A stretch of 64,000 nt of DNA from assembly GCF_008245225.1 (NCBI RefSeq), contig NZ_VTAW01000004.1:62001-126000 (forward strand). Reading direction: 5' to 3'. The notes beneath the pieces are model-generated. The model saw nothing but the letters and a program-made list of their open reading frames with translations. It was not told the DNA's origin and ran no database searches. This document shows, in pieces, positions 33,502-39,279 of the stretch. The position numbers and the translations under genes were made by a program. Every line of letters starts with the position of its first letter. Position 1 is the stretch's first letter. The stretch comes from Natrialba swarupiae (lineage in GTDB: Archaea; Halobacteriota; Halobacteria; Halobacteriales; Natrialbaceae).

Positions 33502-34845
33502 TTACTCCTCCTCTTCGGGCGTGTCGGCGGGATTGCCGTCGATTCGTCGGCTGACGTCGACCTGGTAGTTCTCGAGGATGTCCCGGCCGAGGAGGACGGG
33601 GTAATCCATGTGGCTTCGGTCCTCGACGCTCGCGGTGACGGTGTGCTGGTTGCCACCGACGCCGACGACGACGTCGACGACGGGACGACTCTTCGCGGTC
33701 TTCGAACTCCCGGATCGGATCCGTGTGATCGATTTGATCGGACCGGCGCCGATGTCGGCGGCGAGCGCCGTGTCGATGCTCGTCCGCGTCGCACCGGTGT
33801 CGGACTTCGCGATGATCGACTTCGACCCGCTCGTCCCCGAGAGGACGACCTCCTCGGTGTAGCCGATCACGGCCGTTTCCTCGCTCGGCTGTGTGGTCTG
33901 TACCGGCTGTGCCGTGGGCTGTGAGTCGTCGAGCACCGCGGACAGCTCCTCGACCCGCTGGTCGTCGACCTCACCGCCAGCACGTTCGATCGCGAGTTTC
34001 GCGATGTAGGGGGCGGGACTGATGTGGGTCGCCTCGTAGAGCCCCTTGAAGCCGGCGGTCGGATTGACCTCGAGGACGAACCAGCCCTCTTCACTCTCGA
34101 CGAGGTCGACGCCAGCGTAGTCGAGCCCGACAGCGTCGGCCGCTCGCTGGGCCATCTCTCGAACATCGTCGGGGAGGTCGTCGGTCGCGTTCTCGACGGT
34201 GCCGCCGAGAGCGACGTTCGTCCGCCAGTCGTTGTCCGGCGCGTACCGGTACATCGCGCTGATGACTTCGCCGTCGACGACGTAGACTCTGACGTCCCGG
34301 TGTCTGAGGTCGTCGTGGTCGACGAGTTCCTGTAAGAACGCGTATCGGTTCCCGACCTTGGCGTTGACCGGCTCGTCCCGGCCAACCTTCCAGGTGCCGC
34401 CGCCGTGTGTGCCGATCGCGGTCTTGTACACCGCTTCCTCGCCGTACCGTTCTCGAGCGGCGTTTAACCCTTCGCTGTTGAGCGCGAGGGTGACGTCGGG
34501 GGTCCGGACGTCGTTAGCCGCGAGCGTCGTGGCCGTCGAGAGCTTGTGAATCGCCGTGAGGACGGACTTCGGCTCGTTGAGCGTCGGCACGAGCTGGGCG
34601 AACGTGTTCGCAAGTCCGAGCTCTTCGGCCGGCTGTTCGGTGTTCGAGAGCAACATCCGGTTTGCGATCACGTCGACCGCCGGCTCGAGGACGACGCTCC
34701 CGTCGGTGACGCTGATCGCGGTGTTCTCGGTTCGAAGCCACTCGGTGTCGTGACCTAACGCCTCGACAGCGTTGAGAATGGCCTTGGTTTCCTTGCTCGT
34801 GTGTAAACTCAATACCCCGACCGTGACGGCGTCAGCATCGCTCAT
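33502..34845 (-). CDS. RimK-family ligase fused to a retropepsin-like domain
   Basis: Protein of 447 residues with two enzyme domains. Residues ~1-290 are an ATP-grasp RimK-type amino-acid ligase: VYKTAIGTHGGGTWKV, AFLQELVDHDDLRHRDVRVY, and the metal/ATP block VDLVESEEGWFVLEVNPTAG. After a glutamine/threonine-rich linker (~300-320), residues ~325-430 match the PF05618 family ('ATP-dependent zinc protease', RimB-like), a retropepsin fold with the aspartyl signature SDTGATRTSID and DYPVLLGRDIL. RimK adds glutamates to a carboxyl end, and RimB-type proteins are reported to remove them, so this chain may both write and erase. Substrate unknown here. I chose the ATG at 34845 (MSDADAV); ATG at 34860 adds five residues. 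Confidence 0.85.
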   Translation of the reverse strand: MSDADAVTVGVLSLHTSKETKAILNAVEALGHDTEWLRTENTAISVTDGSVVLEPAVDVIANRMLLSNTEQPAEELGLANTFAQLVPTLNEPKSVLTAIHKLSTATTLAANDVRTPDVTLALNSEGLNAARERYGEEAVYKTAIGTHGGGTWKVGRDEPVNAKVGNRYAFLQELVDHDDLRHRDVRVYVVDGEVISAMYRYAPDNDWRTNVALGGTVENATDDLPDDVREMAQRAADAVGLDYAGVDLVESEEGWFVLEVNPTAGFKGLYEATHISPAPYIAKLAIERAGGEVDDQRVEELSAVLDDSQPTAQPVQTTQPSEETAVIGYTEEVVLSGTSGSKSIIAKSDTGATRTSIDTALAADIGAGPIKSITRIRSGSSKTAKSRPVVDVVVGVGGNQHTVTASVEDRSHMDYPVLLGRDILENYQVDVSRRIDGNPADTPEEEE

Positions 34846-34929
34846 ACGTATCCAACACAAAGCTGGCGGATAAGTATTCGTAGTTAATCCGACGGAAGCG
34901 AGCCAGTGGCGGGCGACACACCGTCTCGA

Positions 34930-36399
34930 TCAGCCGACGACCGATCTGACGTCGCGCAGATCGACGAATCCGCTGACCAGGACGAGCACGGCCCAGACGA
35001 GGCCACCCAGGCCGATGGTGGCAAACAGCATGAGGACGGTCGAAACCATCGGCGTCACCAGCAAGACGGCGACAGCCATCGCACCAGTGATCGAGCAGAT
35101 GATCGCCATCGAGCGCCCGAGACGAGCGAGTCGAAGCGAGAGCTCCGTGTGGACGATGTAGAGGTTCACCGCCACGTACACCGAGTGCGTTGCGACCGTG
35201 GCGAGGGCGGCACCGACGACGCCGATCGTCGGAATCAACAGCAGGTTCAACCCGAGATTAGCCGCCGCAGTCACGCCTTTCGCGACGGCGCGAGCCCGCG
35301 CCCGGCCCAGGTAGTCGAGACTGTCACTCGTCAGGTTCGTAATCGCCTGGAGGACGACGAACGCCGCGAGGATCTGGAGCACCGGAACGGCTCCCGCGTA
35401 GTCCCCCCCGAAGACGAGCGTGATGAACGGTTCGGCGACGATCGCCAGGCCGGCCGCCGCCGGCACGTACACCAACATCGTGTGGGTCAGCGACGTCTCG
35501 TAGATCCGACGGGCCTCCTCGAGTTTCCCGGCGGCTTTCTGTTCGCCGAAGTTCGGCGAGATCGTGAAACCGAGCGATTCGGCCGGCGCGAGAACGAAGT
35601 CGGTAATCTGTTTGCCCAGGGTGTAGAAGGCGACGGCCGCGGGTGTGAGAAAGACGCCGACGAGAACGGTGTCGATCTGCTTGTCGACCACGTTGGCGCT
35701 TCTGGTCGCGGTAAGCGGCACGCTGTACTCGGCGAGGCGTCTCGAGAGTCCCTCCTCGTACGTCGGCGCGGGATCCGTGGGACGATAGAACCGGTAATAG
35801 AGGACGGCCATCCCGAAGACGGCGGCGATCGCGTAGCCGACGATGTAGCCGAACAGGGCTCCGAGCGCGCCGAGGCCCATGAGTACGAACAGAACCGCAA
35901 AGACGAGACGGGCTGTGCCGCCGATAGCCTGGACCGCCGCGCTGTACTCGAGGCGGTTGAATCCCTGGAAGGCGATCTGACTGAAGACGTTAAAGGAGTT
36001 GACCGTGATGTAGAGGACGCCGGCCGCGAGAAACGGGGCGGCGCTCGGGTCGCCGAGGAGGACTGCGATCCGTTCGTGAAATACCAACAGGGCGGAGGCG
36101 ACGACGGTGAGCACAACGAGTTTGAACGCGACCGTCGACCGTAGCAGGTGTGGGATCTGGCCGGGATCGGTCTCGCGATACTCGGAGATGTATCGCGCGG
36201 CCGACTTCCCGAGACCGACGTCGGCAAACAGTTGGACGACGGCCAGGATACCGATCGCCCAGTACAGCGCGCCGTAGCCGTCCGGGTCGAGCAGGTAGCG
36301 TGCGAGAACGAACATCAACAGCGCGCTCGAGATCATATAAATCGCTCGAGCGACGAGCGTCGCTTTGAATCCGCGGACGATATGTTCTCGTGTACTCAT
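34930..36399 (-). CDS. oligosaccharide flippase (Wzx/MATE-like)
   Basis: Membrane protein of 489 residues with 12-14 helices. The N-terminal KATLVARAIYMISSALLMFV, ARYLLDPDGYGALYWAIGI, the mid-protein LTATRSANVVDKQIDTVLVG and AEPFITLVFGGDYAGAVPVL are typical of polysaccharide biosynthesis flippases, which move lipid-linked sugars across the membrane for surface glycans. No glycosyltransferase is adjacent, which is unusual for such genes. It ends 85 nt before the RimK fusion gene on the same strand, so the pair may be cotranscribed. Confidence 0.9.
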   Translation of the reverse strand: MSTREHIVRGFKATLVARAIYMISSALLMFVLARYLLDPDGYGALYWAIGILAVVQLFADVGLGKSAARYISEYRETDPGQIPHLLRSTVAFKLVVLTVVASALLVFHERIAVLLGDPSAAPFLAAGVLYITVNSFNVFSQIAFQGFNRLEYSAAVQAIGGTARLVFAVLFVLMGLGALGALFGYIVGYAIAAVFGMAVLYYRFYRPTDPAPTYEEGLSRRLAEYSVPLTATRSANVVDKQIDTVLVGVFLTPAAVAFYTLGKQITDFVLAPAESLGFTISPNFGEQKAAGKLEEARRIYETSLTHTMLVYVPAAAGLAIVAEPFITLVFGGDYAGAVPVLQILAAFVVLQAITNLTSDSLDYLGRARARAVAKGVTAAANLGLNLLLIPTIGVVGAALATVATHSVYVAVNLYIVHTELSLRLARLGRSMAIICSITGAMAVAVLLVTPMVSTVLMLFATIGLGGLVWAVLVLVSGFVDLRDVRSVVG

Positions 36400-36849
36400 G
36401 GTAGGTGCCAGTCTCGTGTACTCGACGGCGGTCGGCGTGGGGATGTGACCTAACTAAGGCGGATTCGGACGGTCCGACCAGTAGGGGAGAAAGCGCAATC
36501 GGACAATTGTAATGTGGATACAACAGTCGAGTGAGGCTCGACAGCGAACGATAGTCGACGATTACAGTGAGACGGTTTACTGTCGTCGGTACCGCCGAAT
36601 CCGCGACCCGTCTGCGGTTTCAGCGGTACAACGGTACAGCAATCCGTCCGAACCCGTCCCGAACGCGTCGACGGTCGAACCCGGCGACGTCCACCGACCC
36701 TGTGTCGACTCGGGAGGTAAGGATCACCTACAGAGTGCTGTACCTCGAGAGACGACCCTGATTGGGACGGTCACGGTACGACTGTGTCCCGTCCGATCGT
36801 GAATATCGTCCCAGACTAGCTGGCTCGGAACGCGACTCGGGAGGCTGGA
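36400..36849. other. intergenic region with several hairpins
   Basis: 450 nt with no convincing gene. Two adjacent hairpins occur: ACAGT (36564-36568) with ACTGT (36579-36583), and a two-tier one with GTACCGC (36589-36595) against GCGGTAC (36623-36629), enclosing CCGC/GCGG (36601-36604, 36614-36617). They sit downstream of the GNAT gene and upstream of the flippase gene, so a 3' untranslated structure, terminator or small RNA are all possible. Confidence 0.4.
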
Positions 36850-37599
36850 CTAGAGATACGAGGCGTCCCATCGGGTCGCCTTCCGGCGGTTGCCACAGGT
36901 GTTACACTCGATCCGGCCCATCGCATCCATCGCGTTGTCGATCGAATCGCAGTGGCCACAGAGCCACGCGTAGCGTTCGTCCCGGTCGGCTGTCTCGTAG
37001 ACCGTGTAAAACGGAGACTTCGAGCCGCGAGCCGCCTCACCGTAGCTGACGTACAGTCGCTGGCCGTCGACCTCGAGTTCGTCGGTCGCGCCCCAGCCTT
37101 CGCCGTCGATCTCACTCTCGGCGTAGACGTTCTCGACGAACGTCTCCTCGCCGATGTCGACCTCGCGCTGTCCGGCTTGCTCGAAGCCGTGCTCGCGGTA
37201 GAACTCGTTTCCGCCCTCGTTGTCCTCGAGGACGAAACAGTGGATCCGTTCGGCACCCTCCTGAAGCAGTTTCTCGCGGGTGCGTACGAGCAGACGAACC
37301 CCGGTTCCGCTTCCCCGCTGGTCGGGGTCGACGTGCAACCAGAGGATCCGACCTGTGCGATGTTGCTGGCCGATCAGATCGCTCTGGGAGAACGCGACGA
37401 TCGTTCCGTCGCGCTCGACGACCAGAACGAGCGAGTGATCGTCGATCAGTTCTTCGGCGAACGATTCGCCGTACCACTGCTCGATCGCATCGTCGACGGT
37501 ATCCTCGTCGAGAAAGTCGGTGTAGGTCGATCGGAGCGACTGACTGGCGATCGAGCGGATTGCATCGACGTCCGACTCGGTGGCCTCACGGATGTCCAT
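36850..37599 (-). CDS. GNAT acetyltransferase with C-terminal zinc ribbon (DUF5816-like)
   Basis: Protein of 249 residues. The first ~160 form a GNAT domain (MDIREATESDVDAIRSIASQ; the acetyl-CoA loop DQRGSGTGVRLLV; EDNEGGNEFYREHGFEQAGQ). A beta-rich part (about 175-210) follows, then a ribbon with CGHC and CNTC pairs near the C-terminus. This GNAT-plus-ribbon plan is a haloarchaeal family. The acceptor is unknown. The frame runs on upstream antisense to the desuccinylase gene, but homology starts at the ATG at 37599 (MLQLR at 37614 is an alternative). Confidence 0.85.
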   Translation of the reverse strand: MDIREATESDVDAIRSIASQSLRSTYTDFLDEDTVDDAIEQWYGESFAEELIDDHSLVLVVERDGTIVAFSQSDLIGQQHRTGRILWLHVDPDQRGSGTGVRLLVRTREKLLQEGAERIHCFVLEDNEGGNEFYREHGFEQAGQREVDIGEETFVENVYAESEIDGEGWGATDELEVDGQRLYVSYGEAARGSKSPFYTVYETADRDERYAWLCGHCDSIDNAMDAMGRIECNTCGNRRKATRWDASYL

Positions 37600-37749
37600 G
37601 CGTAGCTGTAACATGGCAAAGTACAAAACGTATGCCCACGGTTTGATTGTCCAGTTACGGATCAGCGTCGTCACGGAGTCACCTTCGCCATGGGGAGTGA
37701 GAGGCAGCGAACGAAAGACGGATCGCGGTTGCACCAGGGCGTCGGTGCA

Positions 37750-38094
37750 GTGAAGTACCGCGGGGGCAAGCCCCGCGGCTTCACCGTTTTGACCGCACGT
37801 CCCAAAACGGGCCGTGCTGTCGCAGGCGAATTTAATTCCCCTCGTCCTCCCCGCGATGGGTCGGTTGGAATTAACACCCGAACGCCCGGCGCGTCCGTGA
37901 GGGTCGACGGCTCCACCCCGCCCGACAACACCCGTCTCACCGCCATAGCGGGTTTTGAGAGGTGTCGCATTCCTCGCAACTGCCAGCAGTTGCTTCGGAT
38001 TGAGGTCTTCAATCCCCGTCGCAACTGTATCCTTCAGTACGGTTGGATGAGTAGTAAAGCTTACGCGATTCACCCTCGGGGTCAAGCCCCGAGG
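37750..38094. mobile_element. mini IS200/IS605-like element (PATE-like), no transposase
   Basis: About 345 nt bounded by two very stable hairpins with related loops. Left: GTGAAG and CCGCGGGG (37750-37765) pair with CCCCGCGG and CTTCAC (37771-37784), with a TA bulge and loop GCAAG. Right: CCTCGGGG (38074-38081) pairs with CCCCGAGG (38087-38094) around loop TCAAG. Subterminal hairpins with short loops are the recognition signals of IS200/IS605 transposases, and haloarchaea carry transposase-less derivatives called PATEs. No coding frame fits the interior, which also holds a GCAACTG/CAGTTGC hairpin. Exact ends are not defined. Confidence 0.5.
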
Positions 38095-38202
38095 CACTCT
38101 CGCTGTCTCTCTGTAGAACCCATCACCAACCCGCGCCAGCAGTCGTCGGTCGAGGCGATCCGTAACGACAAGGTTCTCGTCGTTGCTCTCCGAGAGTGGT
38201 GT

Positions 38203-39279
38203 ATGAACGACGACTCGAGCGACGAACCGCCCGACGAACGTACAGACGTCGACGACGAGGCGTTTACGTACAACGGTGGACGGGTCGACCCAGGCGAGTC
38301 GGCAAACATCCGGTACAGCATCAGTGAAACGTATCTCGGCGATCCCGTCAAGATCCCTGTGACAGTCATCAACGGCTCGAAGCCGGGACCGACGGTCTTT
38401 CTGTCGGCGGCGGCACACGGCGACGAACTCAACGGGATCGAAGTCGTCCGCGAAGTCGCCCACGACTGGGATCACTCCGAACTCCACGGGACGCTCGTCT
38501 GTCTGCCCGTGATGAACGTTCCCGGCTTTCTGGCCCAGGAACGGTACCTCCCGATCTACGACCGGGATCTGAATCGATCGTTTCCCGGACGCGAGGGATC
38601 GACGAGCGCTCGACGAATGGCCAATCGGATCTTCACGAACTTCATCGAGCCCTGTGACCTCGGGATCGACTTTCACACGTCGACGCGCGGACGAACGAAC
38701 ATGCTCCACGTCCGCGCGTCAGTCGACGATCCGACAGTCGGTCGTCTCGCTAAGGCGTTCAGTTCGAACGTCATCATCGGTGGTGAGGGTCCGTCCGGAA
38801 CCCTTCGACGGGAGGCAACAGAGGCGGGCGTTCCGACGATCACCGTCGAGATGGGTGAGGCACACCGCTTCCAGCGCCCGTTGATCGACCGTGCGCTGAC
38901 CGGCGTCGCCAGCGTGCTCGCGGAGTTCGGCTGTCATCCGGAGTCGTCGGTCCACTGGCCCGGCTGGCGGACGATCATTCGCGACGAAGACGAGAAAACC
39001 TGGCTTCGCGCTGACGCGGGCGGAATCGTCGATATGAAGCGGGGGCGTGGCGCGCTCGTCGAGGAGGATGAGGTAATCTGTACGATCACCAACCCGTTCA
39101 AAGAGGACGACGACATCGTCACCGTCGACGCTCCGTTTACCGGGCTCATCGTCGGTGTCCTCGAGAATCCCGTGGTCTACCCCGGAAACCCATTGTGTCA
39201 CCTCGTCGGTCTCTCCTCGGATACGCTGACGGCACTCGAGCGCGAACGAACGATGGAGCGGTCCCAATCCGAACTGTGA
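38203..39279 (+). CDS. succinylglutamate desuccinylase/aspartoacylase-family protein
   Basis: Zinc hydrolase of 358 residues in the M14-related AstE/aspartoacylase family. Metal ligands are in AAAHGDELNGIE (His and Glu) and GIDFHTSTRGRTN (His), and the catalytic glutamate is in TVEMGEAH. The C-terminal ~90 residues form a biotinyl-lipoyl-like beta domain (GGIVDMKRGRGALVEEDEVI). Predicted to cut an acyl or amino-acid amide bond; the true substrate is unknown. It lies 3.3 kb from the RimK fusion gene; families like these often cluster in bacteria. ATG at 38203 is where homology starts; the upstream extension reads through the mini-element. Confidence 0.88.
   Translation: MNDDSSDEPPDERTDVDDEAFTYNGGRVDPGESANIRYSISETYLGDPVKIPVTVINGSKPGPTVFLSAAAHGDELNGIEVVREVAHDWDHSELHGTLVCLPVMNVPGFLAQERYLPIYDRDLNRSFPGREGSTSARRMANRIFTNFIEPCDLGIDFHTSTRGRTNMLHVRASVDDPTVGRLAKAFSSNVIIGGEGPSGTLRREATEAGVPTITVEMGEAHRFQRPLIDRALTGVASVLAEFGCHPESSVHWPGWRTIIRDEDEKTWLRADAGGIVDMKRGRGALVEEDEVICTITNPFKEDDDIVTVDAPFTGLIVGVLENPVVYPGNPLCHLVGLSSDTLTALERERTMERSQSEL

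Follow-up and report, generated by a model that had tools for sequence, protein, structure and literature searches.

A haloarchaeal RimK-retropepsin fusion with a glutamate-ended tail and a linked zinc hydrolase: candidate parts of a self-modifying glutamylation switch

This study was concerned with a gene of Natrialba swarupiae in which a RimK-type ATP-grasp ligase is fused to a RimB-like retropepsin, and with a zinc hydrolase gene found near it. Both lie in a stretch of 64,000 nucleotides of contig NZ_VTAW01000004.1 (positions 62,001 to 126,000), called the window here, and the coordinates given refer to it. The fusion gene occupies 33502-34845 on the minus strand and encodes 447 amino acids, with the ATG at 34845 as its likely start; the surrounding single open frame is 33502-34860 on the same strand, with a TTG at 34860. 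The ligase domain comprises residues 1-290 (33976-34845). It is followed by a weakly conserved linker, residues 291-327 (33865-33975), for which the predicted local distance difference test score (pLDDT) of the full-length model is low from residue 311. The RimB-like retropepsin-type domain, with D349 as the predicted catalytic residue, comprises residues 328-430 (33556-33864), and the chain closes with a variable acidic tail (33505-33555) that ends ...TPEEEE. The hydrolase, of the AstE/AspA type, is encoded divergently at 38203-39279 on the plus strand.

The N-terminal two thirds of the fusion matched PF08443 with 81.1 bits (cut-off 21), and the protein passed TIGR00768, the model of the RimK family alpha-L-glutamate ligases, with 156.3 bits (cut-off 143.4). 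The C-terminus passed PF05618 with 42.4 bits (cut-off 27) and carries the DTG motif. A sequence-only reading of this DNA had placed a RimK ATP-grasp domain and a PF05618 retropepsin-like domain in one chain and had chosen the PF05618 profile beforehand as one of its two refuting tests; these matches bear it out. The PF05618 alignment spans profile positions 66-132 only, which is the second half of the profile, and the SDTGA half of the domain was matched below threshold by the retropepsin models PF13975 and PF13650. SDTGATRTSID is the catalytic loop of the retropepsin domain. Among the plasmid records listed (60 of 70), several fusion proteins carry the RefSeq name “RimK/LysX family protein.”

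The C-terminal domain was modelled with an alignment of 42 bacterial and methanogen RimB rows, and the model has a pLDDT of 86.7. In the full-length model, whose alignment contained RimK rows only, this domain is of low confidence. The solved structure closest to the domain model is RloA2 (Z 12.8, root-mean-square deviation 2.6, 106 aligned residues, 32% identity), followed by Lpg0085 (DUF785) and RloA (Z 12.0, 32% identity), and then by Ddi1 and retroviral proteases. As modelled, the C-terminal domain is of the retropepsin fold. The fusion was collected in 80 stretches from 72 genomes, 79 of which contain it, and the set of 78 proteins used to count residues omits L256, whose frame is short and has an in-frame stop, and L266, which lacks the fusion. 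K347, D349, G351, A352, R387, R410, G420, R421 and D422 are invariant in all 78, while position 350 is T in 74 and S in 4. In a published model of RloA, the residues K46, R114 and R137 contact polyglutamate, and cleavage suffers most from the substitutions R114A and R137A (PMC12239564). By our own alignment these residues correspond to K347, R387 and R410, for which the same contacts are presumed. The RimB equivalog NF052261 failed for the fusion (17.2, cut-off 200). A second type of stand-alone PF05618 protein (profile 25-138, frames of about 180-196 amino acids) occurs in Methanosarcina-like genomes (L088-L097), with no RimK or hydrolase gene within 1.5 kb.

In the ligase domain, K141, R186, R208, N210, D247, E259 and N261 are invariant in 78/78 haloarchaeal fusions. 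These residues are a candidate active site, and ligation of glutamate at the expense of adenosine triphosphate is predicted from the sequence. Both domains carry invariant candidate catalytic residues in every protein of the set, and the combined writer and eraser proposed earlier is plausible. The equivalog models of the individual ligases failed, namely E. coli-type RimK (NF007764; 58.7, cut-off 331), LysX (123.1, cut-off 275.6), MptN (126.4, cut-off 350) and CofF (56.2, cut-off 300). The domain is thus about as near the MptN profile as the LysX profile, and far nearer either than E. coli RimK. Such scores favor a ligase that acts on coenzymes or small molecules, akin to MptN, CofF or LysX, whose product the protease and the hydrolase would process; according to PMC11957791, there are archaeal RimK homologues with a part in coenzyme biosynthesis. 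The MptN and LysX scores are nevertheless far under their cut-offs, and a retropepsin requires a peptide substrate, so we judge a ligase of this kind improbable. Identity with LysX/ArgX was ruled out by the ligase tree and by the genome's ArgX, which we take to be a separate gene beside argC. In that tree (13 of 60 RimK rows from genome contigs plus two plasmid rows; unrooted, with long branches), the haloarchaeal ligase domain forms a separate clade with support of 100/100, and the ligase domain of the Thioclava RimBK protein clusters with bacterial RimK.

The hydrolase passed PF24827, the AstE/AspA catalytic domain, with 162.3 bits (cut-off 25), and failed both the equivalog of AstE succinylglutamate desuccinylase (25, cut-off 305.65) and that of DoeB (90, cut-off 402.7). 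The residues that it has in common with bacterial and methanogen copies linked to rim genes include HGDE, DxHT and RDLNR, presumably the zinc and substrate motifs of the family. The genome contains six PF24827 genes, and the closeness of one of them to the fusion therefore proved nothing by itself. A flippase gene, a GNAT-DUF5816 gene and a repeated element of about 370 base pairs lie between the two genes in the window, and a longer hydrolase frame, starting at 37690, crosses this element. The element (37748-38117) has three copies in the genome, the other two on contigs C32 and C8, with 99-100% identity, and its ends are hairpin-like and G+C-rich. It separates the GNAT gene from the hydrolase and is probably mobile, as a small non-autonomous element.

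The comparison of haloarchaeal genomes, however, indicates that the two genes belong together. PF05618 was matched in 222/242 Halobacteria genomes, Haloferax volcanii among them. A rim-type hydrolase lies within the stretch in 65/79 fusion loci; it is on the same side and in divergent orientation in 64 loci and is the immediate divergent neighbor of the fusion in 43/79. The sequence-only reading had left to be established whether the domain pair and the hydrolase neighborhood recur beyond this genome, and they do; its second refuting result, a neighborhood confined to this genome, thus did not occur either. In other haloarchaeal families the two genes are mostly head-to-head neighbors, and the flippase and GNAT genes were seen between them only in the window's own family (f1). 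The association might simply reflect an order of genes passed on with the succinate dehydrogenase block, without function, since the gene for SdhA is near 52/79 fusion loci. This is very improbable, as the hydrolase occurs without SdhA in 14 loci and the reverse in 1. Furthermore, Sdh genes are missing from the surroundings of seven diverged fusion copies (less than 52% identity to that of the window), five of which have their own divergent hydrolase. The joint loss of fusion and hydrolase, and the identical trio of families in bacteria and methanogens, both described below, also speak against it. A pure effect of succinate dehydrogenase synteny was ruled out on the counts of loci with one gene and not the other.

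The two genes are also lost together. Of the 20 genomes without PF05618, 17 have no rim-type hydrolase (best match at most 142 bits), and the remaining three (G110, G167, G183) have one with 70-75% identity, adjoined by fragments of the fusion. Compared with the 61/72 fusion-bearing genomes in which a linked hydrolase is present, this gives a Fisher p of about 1e-8, uncorrected for relatedness. Both fusion and hydrolase were lost within five genera that also have fusion-bearing members (g9, g26, g29, g42 and g43). Chance neighborhood was ruled out by the linkage in 65/79 loci, by this co-loss and by the retention of the hydrolase independently of SdhA. The association of the fusion with a desuccinylase-family gene is real and not accidental. 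The fragments adjoin intact rim-type hydrolases at G110:C1:472782-473027, G183:C2:243987-244109 and G167:C44:204641-204766, and decay appears to reach the fusion earlier than its hydrolase partner; a further fragment lies at G179:C3:236099-236206. Rim-type hydrolases without a nearby fusion were seen in L205 and L266, the former directly after a copper P-type ATPase gene on a Haladaptatus plasmid.

The same three families are found together outside the haloarchaea. A sample of 392 genomes across phyla gave 30 loci, all outside Halobacteria, in which the PF05618 frame stands alone and measures about 160-200 amino acids. RimB and RimK are side by side in 20 of these, and 19 of the 20 also show the start of the hydrolase gene; the other ten have a partial PF05618 match and neither RimK nor hydrolase. 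In longer stretches, the hydrolase directly follows RimK in 17/19 RimB-RimK loci, whose RimK proteins are 72-78% identical to that of Salinivibrio. Methanolobus profundi (L167) is one trio-bearing genome, and annotated plasmids of Salinivibrio and Acaryochloris have a zinc protease, rimK and a succinylglutamate desuccinylase consecutively. Among genome contigs, the best 80 relatives of the rim-linked hydrolase are spread over cyanobacteria, proteobacteria, actinobacteria, planctomycetes, Latescibacterota, Nitrospirota, Nitrospinota and further groups. Within 5 kb, 52 of them have both RimK and RimB, 9 RimK alone, 2 RimB alone and 17 neither, with some contigs cut. The earlier statement that desuccinylase-family genes accompany RimK and RimB thus holds, bacteria included. 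Gene order is variable among these 80, and none of the trios is fused. The RimK proteins of the trio have a conserved C-terminal Gly, often as ...RGKG, in 19/19 methanogen and 47/63 bacterial cases (L098-L117 and L118-L197).

Sequence comparison suggests that the haloarchaeal hydrolase is orthologous to the rim-linked bacterial one. Reciprocal best matches between the haloarchaeal hydrolase and the rim-linked copy were obtained in 16/17 haloarchaeal and 16/17 trio-bearing genomes, and the two exceptions are second hydrolase copies ahead by 1.5 and 4.1 bits. Both sets of 17 were picked for having a linked hydrolase, so this comparison tests orthology and not presence. Among the plasmid matches listed (60 of 575), the best one outside the haloarchaea is a Photobacterium hydrolase beside RimK (200 bits), followed by one of 122 bits. 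In the hydrolase tree, the split of rim-linked and haloarchaeal copies from the outgroup has a support of 33/44, with long branches. This tree used 71 of 129 rows of at least 250 amino acids (16/20 haloarchaeal, 30/66 rim-linked, 8/17 methanogen, 8/17 without RimK or RimB and 9/9 others). Its group “halo_KBlinked” includes L205, whose shown stretch has no fusion, and E. coli AstE was not matched by the hydrolase profile and is therefore absent from it. The hydrolase looks like an overlooked third component of RimK-RimB systems. Parts of this gene network may already be covered by the account of amidoligase gene neighborhoods that Iyer et al. are said to have given in 2009.

The tail of the fusion has a signature of its own. 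Beyond the last conserved strand the 78 tails are 3-24 residues long (median 18) and cannot be aligned, yet the last residue is glutamate (Glu) in 76/78 and the last two are Glu-Glu in 63/78. For the other genes of the fusion loci, the corresponding values are 157/1053 (15%) and 15/1053 (1.4%), and for the hydrolase 10/66 and 1/66. The catalase-peroxidase KatG ends in Glu in 11/13 and in Glu-Glu in none. Acidic composition was ruled out as the source of this end, since genes with acidic tails, used as a control, end in Glu in 27/167 and in Glu-Glu in 6/167. Codon context was ruled out as well: a terminal GAG is also preferred in other genes that end in Glu (136/157), and the codon bias is thus general. 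Within the final 26 residues of the fusion, no Glu run exceeds five in 74/78. RimB requires about 5-6 contiguous Glu, and a tail of Asp only is not visibly cut (PMC11957791). A few added residues would therefore make the tail cleavable, if the archaeal domain is alike. The sequence-only reading had called for a protein with an extendable acidic C-terminus, and the protein found to have one is the fusion itself.

RimK-RimB polyglutamylation is known as a means of bacterial ribosome tuning, via bS6. All 14 archaeal genomes tested, of which four are from haloarchaea and ten from one methanogen family (f13), were without a match to the bS6 profile (PF01250); as a control, this profile was matched in 10/14 named genomes. 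The known RimK target is thus missing in the archaea tested and bS6 was ruled out as target there; of the ribosomal or other target proposed earlier, the classical ribosomal one thereby falls away in these genomes. The fusion might modify and de-modify another Glu-tailed protein, as RimK does with bS6, and its own tail would then be a mimic that inhibits one of the active sites. A Glu-ended tail does appear typical of a RimK acceptor, since bS6 of trio-bearing bacterial genomes ends in Glu in 9/16, on variable tails. Moreover, bacterial RimB cleaves poly-Glu irrespective of the fold that bears it (PMC11957791). The analysis yielded no second candidate, however, and none of the other window families compared across the loci had a conserved Glu-Glu end, a comparison below the scale of whole proteomes. 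We regard a separate target protein as unlikely.

The interpretation to which we give most weight, at a probability of roughly 40%, is that the fusion is a one-chain haloarchaeal glutamylation switch that lengthens and shortens its own tail and has the hydrolase as a third component. The domains, linkage, co-loss and tail signature are observations; glutamate as the substrate, auto-modification, length control and the role of the hydrolase are inferences. The RimK-type domain would use ATP to ligate glutamate onto a C-terminal glutamate, and the likeliest acceptor would be the Glu-Glu terminus of the flexible tail of the fusion itself, either on the same chain or on the partner chain of a dimer. 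The retropepsin domain, active only as a dimer, would trim the tail once its glutamate run is long enough. The hydrolase would most likely take off single C-terminal glutamates or degrade the oligo-glutamate set free. The state of the enzyme, or its grip on a partner, would then depend on how long the tail is. In a wider form, which we hold tentatively, this would be a class-wide enzyme that polyglutamylates and clips its own C-terminus, with tail length as an internal counter and the zinc hydrolase as a second eraser.

Several points weigh against this interpretation. The activity of the haloarchaeal members is itself a prediction, and the profile scores of the ligase domain, higher for MptN and LysX than for E. 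coli RimK, make glutamate uncertain as its substrate. For the bacterial RimBK hybrid, its authors saw no glutamylation of SBW25 RpsF (PMC11957791). Two of the 78 fusions lack a terminal Glu, and no linked hydrolase accompanies the fusion in 11/72 of the genomes that bear it. Lastly, Glu-Glu ends are absent or rare in the separate trios of methanogens (RimB 0/19, RimK 0/19, hydrolase 0/17) and bacteria (RimB 3/56, RimK 0/63, hydrolase 1/80). These trios are without a Glu-ended member, and self-acceptance is therefore not the ancestral role.

The lack of a Glu-ended chain outside the haloarchaea also agrees with a cycle of free poly-alpha-glutamate, in which the ligase makes the polymer, the retropepsin cuts it and the hydrolase frees glutamate, with the Glu end as a primer at most. 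The polymer would be a glutamate store, an osmolyte or a counter-ion of potassium. RimK makes free poly-alpha-glutamate and is stimulated by RimB in doing so (PMC11957791), and the related RloA proteases are required under hypoosmotic stress (PMC12239564). Haloarchaea and many other trio carriers come from salt water, an impression from record titles that was not counted. Such a cycle could, however, do without a Glu-Glu end that is nearly invariant while the rest of the tail varies, and we consider it doubtful. If the self-modifying switch is correct, one polypeptide would unite the writer and the eraser of a post-translational tag with its substrate, and RimK-type polyglutamylation would be independent of bS6. 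The role of RimK-type enzymes without bS6 becomes directly testable in the genetically tractable haloarchaea.

Neighboring features were also noted. In some members of the window's family, the fusion gene is followed directly by a PRC-barrel gene of the same strand (PF05239, 33175-33408 in the window), an arrangement seen nowhere else in the fetched loci. On the other side of the fusion, a gene for an HhH-GPD base-excision-repair glycosylase (PF00730, 26997-27605 in the window) is a common neighbor in distant haloarchaeal families, with 55 matches above 100 bits across the fetched fusion loci. A promoter and terminator scan of the stretch downstream of the fusion gave no candidate, and no relative of the fusion was found in the viral contigs searched. 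Neither a published haloarchaeal RimK-retropepsin fusion nor a co-mention of RimK with succinylglutamate desuccinylase was found in the literature searched, with most subscription journals outside its coverage; the papers that name RimK together with aspartoacylase are medical or neurochemical, to judge from their listing. What is novel here is the Glu or Glu-Glu end on the variable tail of the fusion.

Comparable systems are known in other organisms. In eukaryotic tubulin glutamylation, the TTLL ligases are ATP-grasp writers and the CCP carboxypeptidases are erasers of the zinc-carboxypeptidase type; the likeness to the haloarchaeal set is one of analogy only, as the subfamilies are others and no retropepsin takes part. 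The RimB and RimK of Pseudomonas (RimABK; PMC11957791, PMC7343187) are closer. Like the fusion, they comprise an ATP-grasp glutamate ligase and a DTG retropepsin with conserved polyglutamate-contacting positions, whereas they are separate proteins that act on bS6 and have no Glu-ended tail; a zinc hydrolase goes unmentioned in the parts of these two articles covered. The RloA retropepsins, encoded with the ATP-grasp protein RloC (PMC12239564), include the nearest solved protease structures, and RloA cleaves polyglutamate. Unlike the fusion, they are secreted, unfused, encoded in their own operon and concerned with osmotic stress.

The RimBK hybrid of Desulfotalea and its relatives (Little et al. 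2025, PMC11957791) also has both domains in one chain, with protease activity in the bacterial protein. Thus, the earlier view that RimK and RimB are separate in bacteria fits the separate-gene clusters of many phyla and does not fit this hybrid. RimB is N-terminal in the hybrid, whereas the RimB-like domain is C-terminal in the haloarchaeal fusion. As the order is reversed and the ligase clades are apart in the unrooted, long-branched tree, we read the two as probably independent fusions. The RimB-RimK-AstE/AspA clusters of bacteria and methanogens (Salinivibrio L063, Acaryochloris L066, Methanolobus L167) differ from the haloarchaeal set in having three separate genes in variable order and a ligase of the E. 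coli RimK clade. They nevertheless comprise the same three families, with the hydrolase apparently orthologous, and if the switch proposed here is correct, this trio would be an older, target-neutral core system.

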